Shown: positions 46,531 to 55,318 of the stretch, piece after piece | Layout of the letters: each line of letters begins with the position of its first letter | Position numbering within the stretch: the stretch's first letter is position 1 | From: an uncultured Pelagimonas sp. | GTDB taxonomy: Bacteria; Pseudomonadota; Alphaproteobacteria; Rhodobacterales; Rhodobacteraceae | NCBI RefSeq assembly: GCF_947498515.1 | Contig: NZ_CANMKO010000003.1 | Coordinates: 372,001 to 436,000, forward strand | Length of the DNA stretch: 64,000 nt | Reading direction: 5' to 3' | Notes under the pieces: generated by a model | Told to the model about the DNA's origin: nothing | The model's database searches: none | What the model saw: the letters and a program-made list of their open reading frames with translations, nothing else | Program-made: the position numbers and the translations under genes

Positions 46531-47445
46531 CTAAATCCGACGAAAAACAGCAGTTTCCGACAATTCTGAAACCGGTTCGATGAAGGATTTATCCATGAGA
46601 TCAATGAGGTGCGCCAAAACGTTGCGTGACGCAGCAGGAAGCAATGCCTCTGGAGTTTCGGTGTAAATCATCCGAGCTAACCGTTGGGCGTTTGCCGGAC
46701 CGGCTGCCAAGCCTTCAAGGATTGAAGACTCGCGCGCCATGCGATGCGCCAAGAGTTCTTGAACTCGGGCGTTGGGCGTGGTGATGGGGGCGCCGTGGCC
46801 GGCGTGAAAGGTGTCCCAGCTGGTCCTATCAAGCCTTTGCAAGGAGGCCATGAACCCCCCAAGATCACCATCGGGGGGCGAAACCAAAGAACTGGCCCAA
46901 CCCATTACAAGGTCACCAGAGAACAAAACATTATCCCAAGCAAAACAAAGGTGATTGGCCATGTGACCGGGCGTGTGTAACGCCCGCAAGCTCCAATCTT
47001 TGCCTTTGATGACTTGATCGTCTGACAGGTGGATATCAGGGGCAAATGCCTGATCGACGCCTTCTCCACCTCCGACGCACCCGGAAAGAGCCAAACGTGT
47101 CATCGTTTTGCTGCGACCATCTTCTGCCCGGCCAAAGGCCAAAACTGGCGCATCAACACGATTGGCCAGCGGACTCGCCAAAGGGGAATGGTCAAGATGG
47201 GCATGGGTGACAAATATGTGGGTGATTTTTTGCCCCGGTAGGACCGCAGATTCGATTGCCTGAAGGTGGGCGGGGTCATCGGGGCCGGGATCGATAACAG
47301 CCAACTCGGAGGTGCCCAACAGGTAAGTGTTTGTACCGCGAAACGTCATCGGTGAGGGATTTGGTGCCAGAATGCGACGCAAGCCCGGCGAAAGGTCTTC
47401 TGCAACTCCAACACTCGGTTTGAAATCAGGTTGAGGATCTTGCAT
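46531..47445 (-). CDS. Metallo-beta-lactamase-fold hydrolase
   Basis: The 304-residue enzyme has the metal-binding motif THAHLDHS (HxHxDH, about residues 80-87), a further histidine in HTPGHMANHL (about 160-168), the bridging Asp in FSGDLVMG and a C-terminal winged-helix-like part, as in LACTB2-like hydrolases. It hydrolyses a thioester, RNA or small ester; the substrate is not assignable. The gene is divergent from an EnvZ-like kinase across 53 bp. Confidence 0.88.
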   Translation of the reverse strand: MQDPQPDFKPSVGVAEDLSPGLRRILAPNPSPMTFRGTNTYLLGTSELAVIDPGPDDPAHLQAIESAVLPGQKITHIFVTHAHLDHSPLASPLANRVDAPVLAFGRAEDGRSKTMTRLALSGCVGGGEGVDQAFAPDIHLSDDQVIKGKDWSLRALHTPGHMANHLCFAWDNVLFSGDLVMGWASSLVSPPDGDLGGFMASLQRLDRTSWDTFHAGHGAPITTPNARVQELLAHRMARESSILEGLAAGPANAQRLARMIYTETPEALLPAASRNVLAHLIDLMDKSFIEPVSELSETAVFRRI

Positions 47446-47498
47446 CGTTTGTCCTTTTCGCGATGGTAGCGCCGCGTGGCTTTGGGTAGGCTTATCTC

Positions 47499-48791
47499 AT
47501 GTCGTTCAAATGGCTCAAACAATATATGCCGCGCAGTTTGTATGGGCGGGCCGCATTGATCCTGGTTTTACCGGTGGTCACGCTACAATTGGTTGTTTCG
47601 GTCATCTTTATTCAGCGCCATTTTGATGACGTGACCCAGCAAATGAGTCGTGAGTTGGCACGCGCTACCAATTTGGCGCTGAGCCTGTCCAACTCTCAAG
47701 TTGACGCATTAAAACAACTCGATCTGGAAATTTCTGTGGTGGACGAAAGCGTCGTTCCCGCGGAAGATATTCGGCGCTGGTATGACTTTACCGGAGTAGT
47801 GGTGATCCGCGAGCTGAACCGGAAAATTCCAGGGTTACAGCGTGTCGCCTTGCCCGATGACGGGGTGGTTGAGCTCTATATCCGGCGTGACGACACCTTA
47901 TTCCTCGTCGAAACGAGCCGGGGCCGTGTTTCAGCGACCAACCCGCACCAATTACTTGTTAATATGGTGTTTTTTGGTGTTTTAATGACGTTGATTGCGT
48001 TCTTGTATCTTCGCAATCAACTGCGTCCGATCACACGCCTTGCAACCGCGGCCGAGGCCTTTGGTCGTGGGCGTCACGAAGTCTATTCGCCGTCAGGTGC
48101 CGTAGAAGTTCGCGCCGCAGGCAGTGCCTTTGTCGACATGAGGGCGAGAATCGAACGTCATATCGAACAGCGCACTATGATGCTGTCCGGTGTCAGCCAT
48201 GATTTGCGCACGCCAATCACACGGTTGCGTTTGGGATTGTCACTTTTGGAGGAAGAGGACCGTGCGCCGCTAGAGCAAGACGTTGAAGAGATGCAGCTTT
48301 TGATTGATTCCTTTCTGGATTTCGCACGAGGGGACGCACAAGACGCTGAAACCGAGCTTGTTGACCCATTCATGTTGGTCACCGACATCGTCCAAGACGC
48401 TCAGCGCACCGGGCAAGATGTTGAAATTGCCGAACTGGAAGGTGATGGCGAGGTGCGATTACGCCCGAGGCCCATGCGTCGCGCCGTGGAGAATCTTGTG
48501 GGCAATGCCCGTCGATATGGTTCGTGCTGTCGTGTGTCGGTTTTTCTTTCGGCCAAGGCGTTGCGCATTCGGGTTGAGGATGACGGCCCTGGAATTCCCG
48601 CAGAGGAACGTGAGAGAGCGATGCGTCCCTTTGTACGGCTTGACCCGGCGCGCAACCAAGATCGCGGGTCCGGTGTTGGGCTGGGTTTGGCGATTGCCGC
48701 CGATATTGCCCGAGCGCATGGGGGCGTTTTGCGTCTAGGTGAAAGCGCCGAATTGGGTGGGTTGCGGGCCGATATTGTTATTGGTCTGTAA
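47499..48791 (+). CDS. EnvZ-like membrane sensor histidine kinase (orphan here)
   Basis: The 430-residue kinase has TM1 (about 20-40), a periplasmic domain of about 110 residues, TM2 (about 152-172), a HAMP linker, the phosphoacceptor box SGVSHDLRTPITRLRLGLSL (His about 232) and an ATPase domain with VENLVGNARRYG, DDGPGIPAEE and GSGVGLGLAIAADI. The kinase core resembles EnvZ. No OmpR-type partner is nearby, so the regulator must lie elsewhere. The ATG has only a weak ribosome binding site. Confidence 0.9.
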   Translation: MSFKWLKQYMPRSLYGRAALILVLPVVTLQLVVSVIFIQRHFDDVTQQMSRELARATNLALSLSNSQVDALKQLDLEISVVDESVVPAEDIRRWYDFTGVVVIRELNRKIPGLQRVALPDDGVVELYIRRDDTLFLVETSRGRVSATNPHQLLVNMVFFGVLMTLIAFLYLRNQLRPITRLATAAEAFGRGRHEVYSPSGAVEVRAAGSAFVDMRARIERHIEQRTMMLSGVSHDLRTPITRLRLGLSLLEEEDRAPLEQDVEEMQLLIDSFLDFARGDAQDAETELVDPFMLVTDIVQDAQRTGQDVEIAELEGDGEVRLRPRPMRRAVENLVGNARRYGSCCRVSVFLSAKALRIRVEDDGPGIPAEERERAMRPFVRLDPARNQDRGSGVGLGLAIAADIARAHGGVLRLGESAELGGLRADIVIGL

Positions 48792-49221: not shown

Positions 49222-51432
49222 TCAGTTGGATGCAGTTGCGACCGCATCCAAAAATTCGCCAAGTTTGTGACGATCGAGCGGCTTTGGAAGCAGCTCGATC
49301 GCATGTTGTTTACAGGCTTGCTGGAGTTCGGGTGCGCGATCCGCTGAGATGACCGCACAGGGCAGGGCACCGTATCTATCACTAATCATCGTATATAGAT
49401 CGATCCCCGTACCGCCGGGCCCCAATTGATAGTCAACCAGCAAAACATCCGGTGTAATTTCAATATCTTCCAGCAAAGACAGCGCGGAATTCGCATCATC
49501 GGCTTCAATGACATGAACCCCCCAAGCTTCGAGCATCACCGTTAAAGCGCGTCGGAGTTGCGTTTCGTTTTCGACCAGTAAAACTATAAGACCGGCTTGC
49601 GCTAATCCAACCGGGGCGGCGATACGGCGCGCGCTGGGTTTTTTGCTATCGGCACGGCCCGCGATCGGGACCGTCACCATGAAACAACTGCCCTGACCGG
49701 GAATTGATTTCAAATCCAAAGCGTGGCCCAACCGGGCACAAGCGCGTTCCACAATTGCAAGCCCAAGGCCCAAGCCTTCATTGGCGCTGGCATTGGGATC
49801 AAGTCGGCGGAACTCTTCGAAAATAGTTAACTGATCCTCTTCATCTATACCGGGTCCGGTATCCCAGACTTCTACTCGGGCAGACCCTCCAACGCGGCGA
49901 ACGCCCATCAAAACCTTGCCAGTTTCGGTGTAGCGTACCGCGTTAGAAATCAGATTTTGGATAATTCTCCTGAAATACGCGGGGTCGGTTTCGACCATCA
50001 AATCCGATGGCACAAAGCGTAGAATCAACCCGTTTTCGGCGGCCAGAACCTCCATTTCATCGCGAAGACTGCCTAAAATGTCGCGCAAAGCGACAGTGCG
50101 CACGTCAAAGGTGATACCTTCATCCGAATCCAGTTTGGAAATATCAAGCAGAGCGTCGATGATTTGCCCGGCGCTTCCTAGAGCGGCATCAGCCTTGGAT
50201 AAAACAGCCTGTTCGTGGGGTGTTTTCGACGTATCCGCAAGCGATGCAATGAACAGTTTGGCCGCTGACAAAGGTTGCAACAAGTCGTGACTGGCCGCGG
50301 CAACAAATCGGGACTTCGAGGCATTGGCCCGCTCGGCTGCGGCTAGGGCATCTTCCAATTCCATGGTACGTTCAACGACGCGCTGTTCCAGTATTTCGTT
50401 GATTTCAGCAAGCTTTTGGGCAGCTTCACGTTCGGCGGTAACGTCAGTAACGGAAATCACAAATCCACGATCTGGCATGCCGCGGCCAAAGATTTGCAAC
50501 GTCATACCGCCGCCGCGTTTGATTTCAAAACTGATGGGTCCGCGTGGTCCTTCAGAATAAGCCCAGTGGAGAAATCCTTCGGGGCCAAGGCCGCGGGTAA
50601 AGACGATTTGTTCGTCCAACTGCTCAAGCAACCCGGAGAACGATACGCCCAATTGCAGGCGCCGGGCGGGCAGGGCGAGGAGGGCACCAATCTTGCGATT
50701 CCAGCCGACCAAACGCGCGTTTTCATCAAAGACGCAGACCCCTTGGTTCAAATGATCCAAGGTCGCGCGAATAACGCGGGTTTGTTTATCCTTAAGGCGG
50801 TCGCGCTCCTGACGTTCTAGACGGATCAAATCCGTCACATCGGTTTGCAAGACCACAGTGCCGCCATTGGCGGTCCGATGCTCTGAAACCTGCAACCAGC
50901 GATCCTTGACCAGCCGAACATTAAACATCACATGGCGGTCTTGATGGCGCCGCATCCGTTGCTCGGCCCAATTCTCGGGGCTTATCCCCTTGGGCAACGC
51001 AAGATGCGCGGACCGGCTAATATTGCGAACATAGTCTTGAAAGGGGAGTCCCGGATGAAGAAACCCCTCCACATCCTTGAAGTCACGACAAAAACGCGTA
51101 TTGCTCATCACTAGGAAATCGGCCGGATCGAAGAGAGCAAACCCTTCGGAAACGGTTTCAATTGCATCGGCAAGGTTGCGACGTGCTGCCTCGGTATCAT
51201 CATTGGCCTTTGCCAGCTGCGCGTTGGATTGGTGGAGTAAATCAAGCGTTTGCTCAAGCTCCAGAGTTCTTTCACGAACACGCTTTTCCAACAGTGCGGC
51301 GCGTTCAAATTGCGCGTAGGCGGCGCTTGATTGCTCGCTGCCGTATTCGACACGTTTCATCAACGCATCGGCGATCTTTAAAAGCTTCTCGTTCTGGCGC
51401 TCTAGGCTGTCGTCAGGATCAATCAGGGACAT
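49222..51432 (-). CDS. Hybrid histidine kinase, NahK-like (PAS-HisKA-HATPase-REC)
   Basis: The 736-residue cytoplasmic protein has an N-terminal coiled coil (about 1-85), two PAS-like segments (about 88-200 and 215-335), a second coil, the phosphoacceptor AAASHDLLQPLSAAKLF (His about 389), an ATPase domain (NLISNAVRYTETG, DTGPGIDEED, GLGLGLAIVERA) and a C-terminal receiver (VLLVENE, phospho-Asp in LLVDYQLGPGG, Lys in LLPKPL). There is no transmembrane helix. NahK of Pseudomonas has this plan and sits beside the FIST protein NosP; here the FIST gene is 11 bp upstream. It would act as a cytoplasmic phosphorelay kinase. Confidence 0.88.
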   Translation of the reverse strand: MSLIDPDDSLERQNEKLLKIADALMKRVEYGSEQSSAAYAQFERAALLEKRVRERTLELEQTLDLLHQSNAQLAKANDDTEAARRNLADAIETVSEGFALFDPADFLVMSNTRFCRDFKDVEGFLHPGLPFQDYVRNISRSAHLALPKGISPENWAEQRMRRHQDRHVMFNVRLVKDRWLQVSEHRTANGGTVVLQTDVTDLIRLERQERDRLKDKQTRVIRATLDHLNQGVCVFDENARLVGWNRKIGALLALPARRLQLGVSFSGLLEQLDEQIVFTRGLGPEGFLHWAYSEGPRGPISFEIKRGGGMTLQIFGRGMPDRGFVISVTDVTAEREAAQKLAEINEILEQRVVERTMELEDALAAAERANASKSRFVAAASHDLLQPLSAAKLFIASLADTSKTPHEQAVLSKADAALGSAGQIIDALLDISKLDSDEGITFDVRTVALRDILGSLRDEMEVLAAENGLILRFVPSDLMVETDPAYFRRIIQNLISNAVRYTETGKVLMGVRRVGGSARVEVWDTGPGIDEEDQLTIFEEFRRLDPNASANEGLGLGLAIVERACARLGHALDLKSIPGQGSCFMVTVPIAGRADSKKPSARRIAAPVGLAQAGLIVLLVENETQLRRALTVMLEAWGVHVIEADDANSALSLLEDIEITPDVLLVDYQLGPGGTGIDLYTMISDRYGALPCAVISADRAPELQQACKQHAIELLPKPLDRHKLGEFLDAVATASN

Positions 51433-51443
51433 ATTCTGTTGCG

Positions 51444-52625
51444 CTATTCTGAATCACGGGGTGTTGGGGGATAGATCGCCACACCGGTCAAGGTCTGGTT
51501 CACATGTAGACCGCCAATTTGCTCTCCATAGGTAGAAAAGCCAACAACGTTGTGACGCTGAAGAATATCCGAAATCTCACGGGTTTTTTGTTTTTGTTCC
51601 GCCTCGACCCGTCGCAACAGGCAATCACAGCCCAAAATGTGATCCGGGACACCGTCTACTCCGAATTTGGATAGGCCTTGTTCAAGATGACCGGCCATAT
51701 CCTGATGGTTGGCCAGGGTAAGGACCATGCCTTCGTTAACGGCAGAAAAGAATACCAAGTCTCCGTTTTCATTCACCCTTTGGATCGCGCGCACGTGGTG
51801 GGTATCGCCAAGACGGACGACAACCGGGTAGGCCGCAAAGGTAAAAGCCGAGAGTTGGAAGGGGTCTTTGCCAGTCAGGCGAGCATATTCCTTGGCAGCA
51901 GGTTCCGCATTGATTTCATGCACCAGACGGTTGGCCGGGTCGGCACCGGTTACGACCATGCGGGTATCCGTTGGCACCAAGTGATCCAAGCTAAATACCC
52001 GCACGGGGCAATGGCTTCGGACCAACGCAACAACCGCTGCATTCTGGCGGATTGATCCGTTGTAAGATAGCCAGGTCTGACCAAACTCGGTCCCGTCGCC
52101 GGAGGAGCCACCAAACAGCGGCATCGCCCCAAGCCCGGACGCCAAAACACTTGTCAGCTTTTCTTCGCAAAGCGACAAACCATCGACCATCAAAAATGCA
52201 AATTCAGACACCATAGAACCGGCGCGATGATTGAGACCGAGACGTTGTTGGATCAAGGTGTCGACGATGTTTTGCTCGTCCATATTCCCAAGATCATCAA
52301 TTACATAGGTCGAGGTGGCAAAATTCTCGGACGGAAAACCAACGGCAATGATTTGGCCGTCCTCGTAACCATTTTTGCCAAGCTCTCCGGCTGTCGTACA
52401 AGACAGGATTTCAGCGCCTTCAAAAAGGCCCTGTGCGGTGCCTGTGAGGGCACCAAAATCCGCGTCAGGAGAGGCAAACAAACATACCATTGAAAAAGGC
52501 CCGGACCCAAGCTGATCGCGTAGGGCGACCGCCGGGTTAGGGTCCGTTGCAGCAATCTGCGCGGTGCGCAGTGCTGGCGATCTGGTCAACTCCTCCTGAG
52601 CGGAGCCTTGCGTTGCTCCGTCCAC
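51444..52625 (-). CDS. FIST-domain protein, NosP-like
   Basis: The 393-residue cytoplasmic protein has a FIST-N domain (about 40-230, with EILSCTTAGELGKNGYEDGQ and LFGGSSGDG) and a FIST-C domain (about 235-385, ending VVGFSTYGEQIGGLHVNQ). FIST proteins are sensory modules. NosP is a haem protein that binds nitric oxide and controls its partner kinase NahK. I cannot tell from sequence whether this one binds haem. GTG 52625 is the likely start. It lies between the regulator (43 bp upstream) and the kinase (11 bp downstream). Confidence 0.88.
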   Translation of the reverse strand: MDGATQGSAQEELTRSPALRTAQIAATDPNPAVALRDQLGSGPFSMVCLFASPDADFGALTGTAQGLFEGAEILSCTTAGELGKNGYEDGQIIAVGFPSENFATSTYVIDDLGNMDEQNIVDTLIQQRLGLNHRAGSMVSEFAFLMVDGLSLCEEKLTSVLASGLGAMPLFGGSSGDGTEFGQTWLSYNGSIRQNAAVVALVRSHCPVRVFSLDHLVPTDTRMVVTGADPANRLVHEINAEPAAKEYARLTGKDPFQLSAFTFAAYPVVVRLGDTHHVRAIQRVNENGDLVFFSAVNEGMVLTLANHQDMAGHLEQGLSKFGVDGVPDHILGCDCLLRRVEAEQKQKTREISDILQRHNVVGFSTYGEQIGGLHVNQTLTGVAIYPPTPRDSE

Positions 52626-52667
52626 TCTTTTTTCTTTCCTCAGATCAGTTCGCCGAGAATAGGGACC

Positions 52668-53360
52668 TTAACCCTCGTTTGGCAAGACCCGTGAAAACCG
52701 CGCCTCCTGCGCGACCAACACCGCTTGGGTCCGGGAATGCACGCCAAGCTTGCGCATAATGGCTGTGACATGCGCTTTGACCGTGGTTTCGGCAATGGAC
52801 AGGTCATAGGCGATTTGCTTGTTCAACTTGCCCTCGCAAATCAAATGCAGTATGCGCGCCTGTTGATTGGTGAGCGACGCAAGGCGCGCAAGGGCGTCAT
52901 CGGGTGCGTTTTCTTGACCGCCTTGCGGGTCGATATATCCATCCGGAACAAAGCTTTGCCCCGCGGTAACCGCTTCAAAGGCACGGCGGAACACCGAGCG
53001 TTGCGAATGTTTGGGCACAAACCCGTTGGCCCCGGCCTTGAGCGCGTGGCTAATCATGCGGTTGTCCGCCATAGACGACGCGATAATGATAATTGCGTCC
53101 GTGGCGGCATTGCGCAGACGAACAAGCCCGTCAAGGCCGTTCACATCGGGTAGGTTCAAATCAAGGATGATCAAGCCGATCTTGGAGTCTTGACCGACGA
53201 TCTCTAGCGCCTTTTCTAGGGTTCCGGCGGTTCGGATTTCCTCAAAATCGGCAATCGACTGCAAGGTCAGCGTCAGCGCATCACAAAACAGAGGATGATC
53301 GTCAACGACCAGAGCGGAACTGGTACCGGATGCCAAAGCGGTGTGTGGGCTGCTGGTCAT
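52668..53360 (-). CDS. NarL/LuxR-family response regulator of the FIST/kinase operon
   Basis: The 230-residue regulator has a receiver domain (about 15-130: ALVVDDHPLF, phospho-Asp in IILDLNLPDVNG, Ser in IIASSMAD, Lys in FVPKHSQ) and a LuxR-type helix-turn-helix (about 165-225: ILHLICEGKLNKQIAYDLSI and AETTVKAHVTAIMRKLGVHS). The start at 53360 is chosen before the receiver; an upstream extension to 53534 would overlap the binding-protein gene. It is first in the probable operon with the FIST protein and hybrid kinase, and is the natural phosphate acceptor. Confidence 0.9.
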   Translation of the reverse strand: MTSSPHTALASGTSSALVVDDHPLFCDALTLTLQSIADFEEIRTAGTLEKALEIVGQDSKIGLIILDLNLPDVNGLDGLVRLRNAATDAIIIIASSMADNRMISHALKAGANGFVPKHSQRSVFRRAFEAVTAGQSFVPDGYIDPQGGQENAPDDALARLASLTNQQARILHLICEGKLNKQIAYDLSIAETTVKAHVTAIMRKLGVHSRTQAVLVAQEARFSRVLPNEG

Positions 53361-53445
53361 AACGCTTTCGTCTTTCTTGAATTCTTGATCAGGATAGGAC
53401 GGTCGCGCGCCGGGGTCTTTAGCCGAAAGGTCGCATATGCAGATG

Positions 53446-53473
53446 CAAAAACGGCGGGGAAGACCCCGCCGTT
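53446..53473 (-). terminator. Intrinsic terminator of the peptide-binding protein gene
   Basis: On the minus strand AACGGCGGGG and CCCCGCCGTT form a 10-bp stem with a four-base loop, followed by five Ts. Confidence 0.92.
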
Positions 53474-53488
53474 GTGACTTGGTTATAT

Positions 53489-55318
53489 TTATTTTTCTTC
53501 CCACCACCAGACATCTGATTGCCAGGTGATCCAATCGCCATAGACCGGAATGCGTTCGGGAAATTGCAATTCTTTGGCATGGGCCAAGCGGCCATTTGTG
53601 TAGGTGTAGAACGGGATCACATAGCGTCCGGACGTCAACACACGGTCCAAGGCGCGCGTCGAGGCGATGAAATCATCACGCGTCGTTGACGTTAGGATCG
53701 AGGTGATCATTGCATCCACAGCGGGTGAGTTGATGCCCATCCAATTTCGGGTCCCTTGGGTTTCAACACCATTGGAGCCCCAATAATTGTGTTGTTCGTT
53801 GCCGGGGCTCAGCGACACACCGCGCCAATAGAAGGTCATGTCGAAATCATATTCGACAGTGCGTTCCTTGTATTGGGCGGAATCGATTGAGTTGATCGAC
53901 ACATCAATGCTCATCCGTTTCAGAGCTTGTTGATAGGTATCCGCGATCCTCTCATGTTCTGCATTGCCTTTGCGCATCAGGATTTCAAAGGTAAAAGGCG
54001 TACCGTTCTGATCCTTCATCACACCGTCCTGAACGGTGTAACCGGCCTCTTCCATAAGGGCCAAGGCCTTGCGCAGGTTTTTGCGATTGCGTTCGGATCC
54101 ATCTGAGACGGGCAGGGTGTAGCCATCGAGCGCGCCGGGCAAGAGATCATCCTTGAACGGATCCAAAAGCTCTTTGACCTTGCCGGTCGCGGGGCCGTCC
54201 TGCATTCCGAGGACCGAGTTGGAAAAATAGGATGTGATGCGCGGTTGCTGCGATCCGGTCAGCGTTTCGTTGATATATTCAAAGTTGAACGCATGTATCA
54301 GCGCATCGCGCACGCGCCAATCCTGAAACAACTCACGACGCGTGTTCATCGCCAAACCGATGATCCCGGAGGGGCGGGCATGTGGAATTTCCGACTTCAC
54401 AACTTCACCGGCACTGACCGCCGGGAAGCCATATTGGGTTTGCCACTTTTCAACGTTGAACTCGCGGTTGGAGTTCAGGACGCCGCCCTTGAAGGCTTCG
54501 AACATCGCGGTTTCGTCGCCAAAGAACTCCATCCGAATCTCGTCGAAATTCATTGTGCCACGGCGGAAGGGCAAATCCTTGCCCCAGTATTCGGGATTGC
54601 GTTTGAGCGAGACATAGCGCCCGGCCTCATAGTCCTCGATCACATATGGGGCCGAGGTGATCGGGAGTAAATCCAGCCGGGATTGTTCAAAATCGACACC
54701 GTCCCATTGCGCCTTTTTCAAGATCGGACGCATCCCGACGATGAGCGCCAACTCGCGATCTTCGACATTGAAGGTGAACTTGACCTTGTTGGGCCCGGTC
54801 TTTTCCATCTTGTCGATTTTGCCCCAAAGCCCGCGGTAGCGGCCATGGCCTTGGGTGCCGAGGGTCTCATAGCTCCACATGACATCGTCGATGGTCACCG
54901 GGCTGCCATCCGAGAATTTGGCCCCGTCACGCAGAGTGAATTCGGCCCATTCGCGATTCGGCCCAACCTCAATCGATTCGGCCAAAAGGCCATAAAGCGA
55001 GAAAGGTTCGTCCCAATTGCGCCCCATAAGACTTTCGGAACCAAGAAAGCGCAATTGCCAAGGAACCCGGCCTTTTTGAATATAAGGATTGAGGCTATCA
55101 AAACTGCCGACTTCACCGGCGGCAATAACGCCCCCTTTTGGAGCATCCTGATTGACATAAGGGAGAGACACAAAATCCGGTGGAAGGGCCGGGTCTCCAT
55201 ACATAGCTATGCCATGCTGAGGATCGGCCCATGCGACTCCTGCTGCTAACCCACTGGTTAGAATCAGAGAAATCGCACCCATTGTACGGCCTGTATTTCG
55301 GAAAAAGTCTAAGCTCAT
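53489..55318 (-). CDS. Extracellular solute-binding protein, family 5 (peptide/microcin C-type)
   Basis: The 609-residue protein has a signal peptide (hydrophobic core about 14-28, cleavage near GVAWA) and the SBP_bac_5 fold of oligopeptide and YejA-like binding proteins: EPFSLYGLLAESIEV, LRDGAKFSDGSPVTIDDV and TNGRLAHAKELQFPE at the end. It would capture peptides or opine-like ligands in the periplasm. No permease or ATPase genes are adjacent, so the transporter lies elsewhere. Confidence 0.92.
   Translation of the reverse strand: MSLDFFRNTGRTMGAISLILTSGLAAGVAWADPQHGIAMYGDPALPPDFVSLPYVNQDAPKGGVIAAGEVGSFDSLNPYIQKGRVPWQLRFLGSESLMGRNWDEPFSLYGLLAESIEVGPNREWAEFTLRDGAKFSDGSPVTIDDVMWSYETLGTQGHGRYRGLWGKIDKMEKTGPNKVKFTFNVEDRELALIVGMRPILKKAQWDGVDFEQSRLDLLPITSAPYVIEDYEAGRYVSLKRNPEYWGKDLPFRRGTMNFDEIRMEFFGDETAMFEAFKGGVLNSNREFNVEKWQTQYGFPAVSAGEVVKSEIPHARPSGIIGLAMNTRRELFQDWRVRDALIHAFNFEYINETLTGSQQPRITSYFSNSVLGMQDGPATGKVKELLDPFKDDLLPGALDGYTLPVSDGSERNRKNLRKALALMEEAGYTVQDGVMKDQNGTPFTFEILMRKGNAEHERIADTYQQALKRMSIDVSINSIDSAQYKERTVEYDFDMTFYWRGVSLSPGNEQHNYWGSNGVETQGTRNWMGINSPAVDAMITSILTSTTRDDFIASTRALDRVLTSGRYVIPFYTYTNGRLAHAKELQFPERIPVYGDWITWQSDVWWWEEK

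Follow-up and report, generated by a model that had tools for sequence, protein, structure and literature searches.

The closest described relatives of the operon considered here come from the same bacterial family: afdR-afdT-afdS and rfdR-rfdT-rfdS of Rhodobacter sphaeroides and flhR-orf2-flhS of Paracoccus denitrificans each encode a response regulator and a kinase, with a further open reading frame between them (PMC4776306; PMC8879981). The Afd and Flh systems are reported to activate, and the Rfd system is thought to repress, the genes of formaldehyde/methanol oxidation (PMC4776306; PMC8879981); AfdRS and RfdRS seem to be without conserved cysteines, and the role of the middle protein is described as unclear (PMC4776306). 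In Pseudomonas, nosP and nahK are reported to lie in the ped/exa cluster near the LuxR-type gene agmR/erbR (PMC12997753). We analyzed a stretch of 64,000 nucleotides from an uncultured Pelagimonas sp. (contig NZ_CANMKO010000003.1, positions 372,001 to 436,000; “the window”), which contains an operon for a response regulator, a FIST protein and a hybrid histidine kinase. With a probability that we put at about 0.78, comparison with related genomes points to this operon encoding a two-component system of the AfdRTS/RfdRTS or FlhR-orf2-FlhS type, governing periplasmic alcohol oxidation and aldehyde removal.

An earlier note made from the sequence alone had described these genes as a one-strand set of regulator, FIST protein and hybrid kinase, and open reading frames and Pfam searches find each of the three where it had been placed:

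52668-53360, minus strand: NarL/LuxR-type response regulator (Response_reg 77 bits, GerE 75 bits), in an AfdR/FlhR-like position.
51444-52625, minus strand: NosP-like FIST protein of 393 aa with a GTG start (FIST_N 135 bits, FIST_C 67 bits).
49222-51432, minus strand: NahK-like hybrid histidine kinase (two PAS_7 stretches, HisKA, HATPase_c and REC), in an AfdS/FlhS-like position.

The Pfam domains agree with a FIST protein adjoining a PAS-kinase-receiver hybrid kinase and with a NarL-type regulator at the head of the operon, as had been proposed; of the two gaps given there, 11 bp between FIST gene and kinase (51433-51443) is exact, and the 43 bp between regulator and FIST gene measures 42 bp (52626-52667). 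Both FIST domains exceed their gathering cut-offs (23.2 bits for PF08495 and 28.5 bits for PF10442), which makes the protein a member of the FIST superfamily, and the kinase has the PAS-HisKA-HATPase_c-REC architecture of the NahK type. The phospho-acceptor residues are in place (H382 of the kinase, D667 of its receiver domain and D67 of the regulator). The regulator is a DNA-binding protein, with no cyclic di-GMP (c-di-GMP) domain among its Pfam domains. The FIST gene, the only one in the source genome, occupies the same place in its operon as afdT, rfdT and orf2.

The conservation of this arrangement was assessed in two locus sets, both located through the FIST gene and overlapping in their genomes: 100 sampled Rhodobacteraceae loci plus the window (101 in all), and 80 named loci, the best 80 of at least 552 relatives. 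In 98 of the 101 loci the order of regulator, FIST gene and kinase is kept, on one strand and within about 2 kb, and all three genes were found in 77 of the 80; the gene-order map that the earlier note had proposed thus shows conserved co-occurrence in both sets, and its view of a self-contained three-gene signaling unit holds. The named set spans Salipiger, Ruegeria, Shimia, Sulfitobacter, Cereibacter, Paracoccus and Ensifer, and the closest of these best 80 relatives is Pelagimonas phthalicica (FIST 82% identity). Cereibacter ovatus, Cereibacter johrii and one Paracoccus strain (L261, L263, L278) have the regulator-FIST-kinase operon with the FIST gene in the middle place, apparently in two copies in C. 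ovatus. Given the layout described for Afd and Flh, and a FIST gene in the middle of these Cereibacter and Paracoccus operons, we provisionally assign the window operon to that kind. In a Marivita metagenome-assembled genome the FIST reading frame (L219:10001-11116) is interrupted by one stop codon, reflecting a pseudogene, a frame error or an assembly error.

In many relatives a pyrroloquinoline quinone (PQQ)-dependent methanol/ethanol dehydrogenase (PQQ-ADH; representative 777 bits, cut-off 480) is encoded immediately ahead of the regulator. Of the 101 loci, 33 have a PQQ-ADH and 20 a CoxL-like gene at most 10 kb from the FIST gene, and 73 have at least one of five marker genes over that distance. 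The corresponding counts for the stretch examined in the named set are 20/80 and 25/80. Other recurrent neighbors are of PQQ-synthesis type (radical SAM/SPASM, TENA/PqqC), SoxYZ-like or MBL proteins, a class III alcohol dehydrogenase, and a CoxSLMG-like molybdenum hydroxylase. The source genome has one PQQ-ADH that passes the cut-off, on the same contig as the operon and inside a cluster whose PQQ-ADH, PedF cytochrome, PedC, PQQ_ABC_bind and PQQ_ABC_repeats all score over the NCBIfam cut-offs, with Cox-like genes adjoining; the operon therefore looks like the usual regulator of a ped-type cluster, shifted a short distance away.

A nitric oxide (NO) module would be expected to track NO-forming denitrification, and an alcohol-oxidation module to track PQQ-ADH. 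Profile searches gave NosP matches in 144 of 292 Rhodobacteraceae genomes, none of them over the curated cut-off; leaving out eight weak matches (E worse than 1e-25) resulted in 136 FIST genomes. FIST and PQQ-ADH occur together in 99 genomes, FIST alone in 37, PQQ-ADH alone in four and neither in 152 (Fisher p 7e-41), that is, FIST is present in 99 of the 103 genomes with PQQ-ADH versus 37 of the 189 without. The association persists within genera (table 56/22/2/66, Cochran-Mantel-Haenszel z 7.9; 146 of the 292 genomes in 27 genera, 19 of these informative), so that relatedness alone does not explain it. Where distances were listed for genomes with both (97), the distance between FIST and PQQ-ADH genes is at most 5 kb in 42, 15 kb in 65 and 25 kb in 71; another 20 have the two genes on separate contigs. 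The link is not confined to roseobacters, given a weaker association among 371 Pseudomonadota genomes outside the family, where PQQ-ADH is present in 31 of the 66 genomes whose NosP-type match is strong versus 55 of 305 others (p 3e-6), and in 17 of the 25 genomes with a NosP over the cut-off. For nirK over its cut-off the Rhodobacteraceae counts are 20 with both, 116 with FIST alone, 23 with nirK alone and 133 with neither (p 1.0), in a search that left aside nirS, nor and H-NOX; nirK is one NO source only, and NO may also arrive from outside the cell.

Upstream regions of the PQQ-ADH genes share a site, found in 38 of 40, with a consensus near GGTCNTACGACCAATGTNCAATAT. Over 2.08 Mb of loci the matrix trained on these promoters found 56 sites above 16 bits, training sites counted, versus 1.7 from column-permuted matrices. 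Promoters outside the training set also scored above 12 bits: 10 of 21 for CoxG-like genes (0.02 expected), 13 of 32 for the pedA-type binding protein (0.05), and 11 of 25 for pedF (0.04), the last often in the same divergent region as the pedA-type gene. In genomes that have the module, held-out PQQ-ADH promoters, several of them close kin of training promoters, were positive in 13 of 13 cases (15.9-38.3 bits, two on the reverse strand; permuted 95th percentiles at most 8.8), and the operator was found in none of four PQQ-ADH promoters from genomes without the module (best 3.3 bits). In the source genome the sole perfect match to the genus form of the operator is the PQQ-ADH promoter; sites with up to two mismatches number 35 against 37 in the reversed control, no excess, and therefore only the single perfect match carries weight. 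The ped cluster there has four matches above 13 bits, with 0.33 expected in the stretch, at three places:

Place 1: between pedF and the pedA-type gene.
Place 2: between the cytochrome gene and the NMT1-like gene, if the latter starts at its signal peptide (7864).
Place 3: upstream of the PQQ-ADH gene.

The lone match above 13 bits in the window (23177) lies inside a gene for a helix-turn-helix (HTH)-cupin regulator and was taken as probably due to chance.

A variant of the site is carried by the promoters of the family's own regulators, 52 of 97 scoring above 4 bits versus 2.7 expected from permuted matrices, and in 34 of the 52 it is placed 64-85 bases upstream of the regulator start. The region upstream of the window's regulator contains the following:

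53417-53436, minus strand: weak operator-like site ATGCGACCTTTCGGCTAAAG, 76 bp upstream of the regulator start (5.6 bits by a combined matrix of the ADH sites plus CoxG and pedF sites).
53391-53396, minus strand: TATCCT, a candidate -10 element suggested by the sequence, 36 bases away from the operator-like site's GACC.
53453-53470, minus strand: predicted hairpin GGCGGGG-TCTT-CCCCGCC followed by a T run, between the solute-binding protein gene and the regulator.
53489-55318, minus strand: family-5 solute-binding protein gene (SBP_bac_5 220 bits), a conserved neighbor for which no part in the system is claimed.

The GACC to -10 distance in the genome's own PQQ-ADH promoter is 35 bases, and the site at 53417-53436 is a possible autoregulation site. 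The hairpin is likely to be the terminator of the upstream gene, and the operon therefore probably has its own promoter.

From these comparisons we infer a circuit in which periplasmic alcohol would be converted to aldehyde by PQQ-ADH and part of the aldehyde would reach the cytoplasm. There the FIST protein, with the aldehyde or another ligand, would bind the kinase and set its activity; as the signal we favor the aldehyde product, with the FIST protein as its sensor. The kinase would then phosphorylate the regulator, either directly or by way of its own receiver domain and a separate phosphotransfer protein. Once phosphorylated, the regulator would bind the predicted operator GGTCGTACGACCTATGGCGCG, whose core TACGACCWWKGKC would lie upstream of the -10 region with its GACC some 35 bases ahead of the -10 box. 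The bound regulator would switch on PQQ-ADH, its cytochromes and the ped-type transporter genes; the form-II Cox-like molybdenum hydroxylase is a probable further target and the regulator's own operon a possible one.

How the FIST protein could respond to an aldehyde was considered from its residues and predicted fold. The window FIST belongs to group A; Cys335 and His374 show no variation, and Cys76 hardly any, across three sets of proteins (74 of group A, 26 of group B and 25 NosP proteins over the cut-off), in which His215 is kept in 67, 24 and 25, respectively. A wider sample was represented by its 30 best-scoring FIST_C proteins: all of them have Cys335, Arg338, Tyr366, Gly367, Glu368, Asn376 and Thr378, 29 have His374, and 29 have Gly at position 215. 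The Cys-Glu-His combination thus marks the FIST_C fold in general, as judged from these alignments, and the presence of the cysteine alone does not single out the window protein, since it is general to FIST_C. His374, considered as a NosP-specific haem ligand, was dropped on the same count of 29 in 30. Being kept in NosP/T proteins where general FIST_C proteins have Gly, His215 is a residue of NosP/T type, and it would be the best haem-ligand candidate, if haem is present. The codons concerned are:

51621-51623, minus strand: Cys335 of the FIST protein, invariant.
51522-51524, minus strand: Glu368 of the FIST protein, invariant.

Modeled with AlphaFold2 (mean pLDDT 91.5, pTM 0.88), the window FIST has one match in the PDB with E below 0.001, human FBXO22 (8s7e_B; E 1.7e-7, TM 0.46/0.52), at 12% identity and a root-mean-square deviation of 8.7 over 408 columns. 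Cys326 in the FIST domain of FBXO22 is reported to form a hemithioacetal with aldehydes, with Glu362 nearby; the aldehydes used were drug-like compounds, and the parts of these papers available to us contain no tests of small metabolic aldehydes (PMC13316043; PMC11208438). FBXO22 is a ubiquitin-ligase subunit, unlike the window FIST; its C326 and E362 are 36 residues apart, and C335 and E368 of the window protein 33. Searches of the PDB with sequence profiles failed to reach FBXO22, and no solved FIST relative was found by sequence; the equivalence of C335 and C326 is therefore put forward from the fold, the spacing and a CxxR motif in which C326, like C335, presumably lies. We suggest, tentatively and as an idea that we ourselves consider doubtful, that bacterial FIST proteins such as this one act as aldehyde receptors of the reversible-covalent kind: aldehyde from PQQ-ADH would form a hemithioacetal with C335, assisted by Glu368 and His374, and the partner kinase would then be released or clamped. 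If true, this would provide a function for AfdT, RfdT and orf2 and for the FIST protein of the Pseudomonas ped cluster, change how NosP-NahK is viewed, and imply that the aldehyde trap of FBXO22 is an ancient property of the fold.

The earlier note had read the operon as resembling the NosP-NahK module, in which a haem-bearing FIST protein alters its grip on the kinase in response to NO and the output is lifestyle or biofilm formation. The homology is real: the window FIST has the NosP model as its best match (NF041558; E 3e-112, 375 bits), the kinase matches NahK (NF041831; E 3e-112, 376 bits) and the NahK-family C-terminal model near_NosP_CTERM (NF041832; E 4e-104, 349 bits), the adjacent partner kinase typical of NosP is encoded 11 bp downstream, His215 is present, and in Burkholderia NosP is reported to control its kinase in an NO-dependent manner (PMC12570481). 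Family membership does not follow, as the curated cut-offs of 450, 1500 and 400 bits, respectively, are all missed. Moreover, the window FIST lacks Cys51, Cys128, Cys294 and His185, present in 25, 18, 25 and 21 of the 25 over-cut-off NosP proteins; FIST shows no association with nirK; the operator and the neighbors are of alcohol-oxidation type; and the regulator binds DNA and has no c-di-GMP domain. An NO module in this sense is improbable; what stands of the NO/biofilm reading is the homology and the conserved unit, and for the output the data favor alcohol/aldehyde oxidation. The regulator's best NCBIfam match, ErdR (NF041830; 156 bits, cut-off 390 missed), suggested a regulator of acetate metabolism of the CrbS/CrbR type acting on acs, which was rejected on the recurrent neighbors, these being PQQ-ADH or ped-type genes; acs itself was not searched for.

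The same regulon might instead receive its signal through the PAS domains of the kinase (redox, quinone or haem state), with the FIST protein a scaffold or minor modulator. The two PAS_7 stretches would allow this, and in R. sphaeroides an rfdT mutant is reported to have no effect on adhI in formaldehyde (PMC4776306); a dispensable FIST is hard to explain when 98 of 101 loci have its gene between those for the regulator and the kinase, even if these loci were found through that gene, and FIST proteins elsewhere are reported to control their partner kinases (PMC12570481). We hold this to be possible, if on the unlikely side. A module specific to C1 compounds (methanol, formaldehyde), not serving alcohols generally, would fit the formaldehyde and methanol on which the Afd, Rfd and Flh systems were defined (PMC4776306; PMC8879981), as well as the class III alcohol/formaldehyde dehydrogenase encoded within 10 kb in 11 of the 101 loci. 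That enzyme recurs beside the divergent group-B copies, whereas the window protein is a group-A member from a genome whose cluster is ped-type (PedF, PedC) with Cox-like hydroxylase genes, which makes such specificity unlikely here.

Several observations weigh against our assignment of the operon to alcohol oxidation. Support for control of the alcohol/formaldehyde oxidation genes, strong as it appears, is comparative, the link between regulator and operator is correlative, and the likeness to Afd, Rfd and Flh was judged by description and operon layout. The PQQ-ADH of the source genome is 42 kb away from the operon, and none of the five alcohol/aldehyde markers lies within 10 kb in 28 of the 101 loci, among them that of the window and those of the six sampled relatives nearest to it. 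PQQ-ADH is missing from 37 of the 136 Rhodobacteraceae FIST genomes and, outside the family, from 35 of the 66 NosP-type genomes, 19 of which belong to one small-genome family. As for the operator, only two of 12 pqqB promoters carry it (0.02 expected); the window's regulator promoter scores -1.0 bits by the matrix trained on PQQ-ADH promoters alone and weakly (5.6 bits) by the combined one; three of the four module-free genomes carry a more distant PQQ-ADH (463-671 bits versus 769 in the fourth), in a test that excluded PQQ-ADHs scoring below 400 bits against that of the source genome. In R. sphaeroides, the rfdT mutant is reported to show unchanged adhI expression in formaldehyde, and RfdRS is described as a repressor but AfdRS as an activator, so that control here might be of either sign (PMC4776306).

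Some further features of the two regions are recorded here. The genome's own PQQ-ADH (L135:9184-11034) has the motif WDYDGVNE; an Asp two positions past the catalytic Asp is a hallmark of lanthanide-dependent enzymes. Beside the ped cluster is a form-II Cox-like cluster (contig 452132-456498; L136:15233-19599; L135:113), its CoxL-like protein with AYRGAGR and an operator-like site of 10.6 bits upstream. A gene for a NosR-like protein (L136:13033-15141; 455 bits, cut-off 1000) adjoins an ABC permease gene, with an operator-like site ahead (12.5-13.0 bits); the same pair is found beside the FIST operon in L087, with a site of 17.0 bits. Around the window operon, the solute-binding protein gene is conserved upstream among the nearest relatives (immediately upstream of the regulator in seven of the 80 named loci, and 7-8 kb off in two more), and genes for an EnvZ-like kinase and an MBL-fold hydrolase (46531-48791) are conserved downstream in the same small clade (L071, L064, L083, L095).

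The comparison connects three literatures, on NosP/NahK, Afd/Flh and FBXO22, and in the open-access literature searched we found no paper joining them; the available portion of a paper on XoxF in roseobacters says nothing on these regulators (PMC5934484). Formaldehyde sensing of the AfdRS type becomes testable, with a FIST middle protein whose invariant Cys is placed where FBXO22 appears to trap aldehydes. For PP_2663-PedS1, a 2026 review leaves undecided whether the signal is NO “rather than (or in addition to)” alcohols (PMC12997753), a question likewise made testable by comparative data that tie NosP-type FIST proteins to PQQ-ADH. The activity of form-II “CO dehydrogenases” is described as unresolved (PMC13240472); that about half of the sampled CoxG-like promoters carry the alcohol-regulon operator suggests that these enzymes, including the one here, may oxidize aldehydes of that regulon. 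The operator also offers a reporter site for roseobacter alcohol metabolism.

Set beside the described systems, the window operon shares with Afd, Rfd and Flh the order of regulator, middle reading frame and kinase, these being systems of the same family that control methanol/formaldehyde oxidation (PMC4776306); unlike them, it is located beside a solute-binding protein gene and 42 kb from the PQQ-ADH cluster, and its predicted targets are ped-type genes where that of the R. sphaeroides system is adhI. NosP-NahK of P. aeruginosa (PA1975-PA1976) and PP_2663-PedS1 of P. putida, near AgmR/ErbR, are likewise described as an adjacent FIST protein and hybrid kinase in an alcohol-oxidation neighborhood (PMC12997753), which weakens the earlier note's contrast of an output differing from the Pseudomonas network; the window operon differs in having its regulator at the head of the same operon, in the missing NosP-typical Cys and His positions and in its unmet cut-offs. 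NosR-NosP-NosK of Burkholderia is also a three-gene unit of regulator, FIST protein and kinase, but its regulator is reported to have an HD-GYP domain and its kinase no recognized sensory domain (PMC12570481), whereas the window encodes a DNA-binding regulator and a PAS hybrid kinase. By this comparison the system is ordinary in kind for Rhodobacteraceae.

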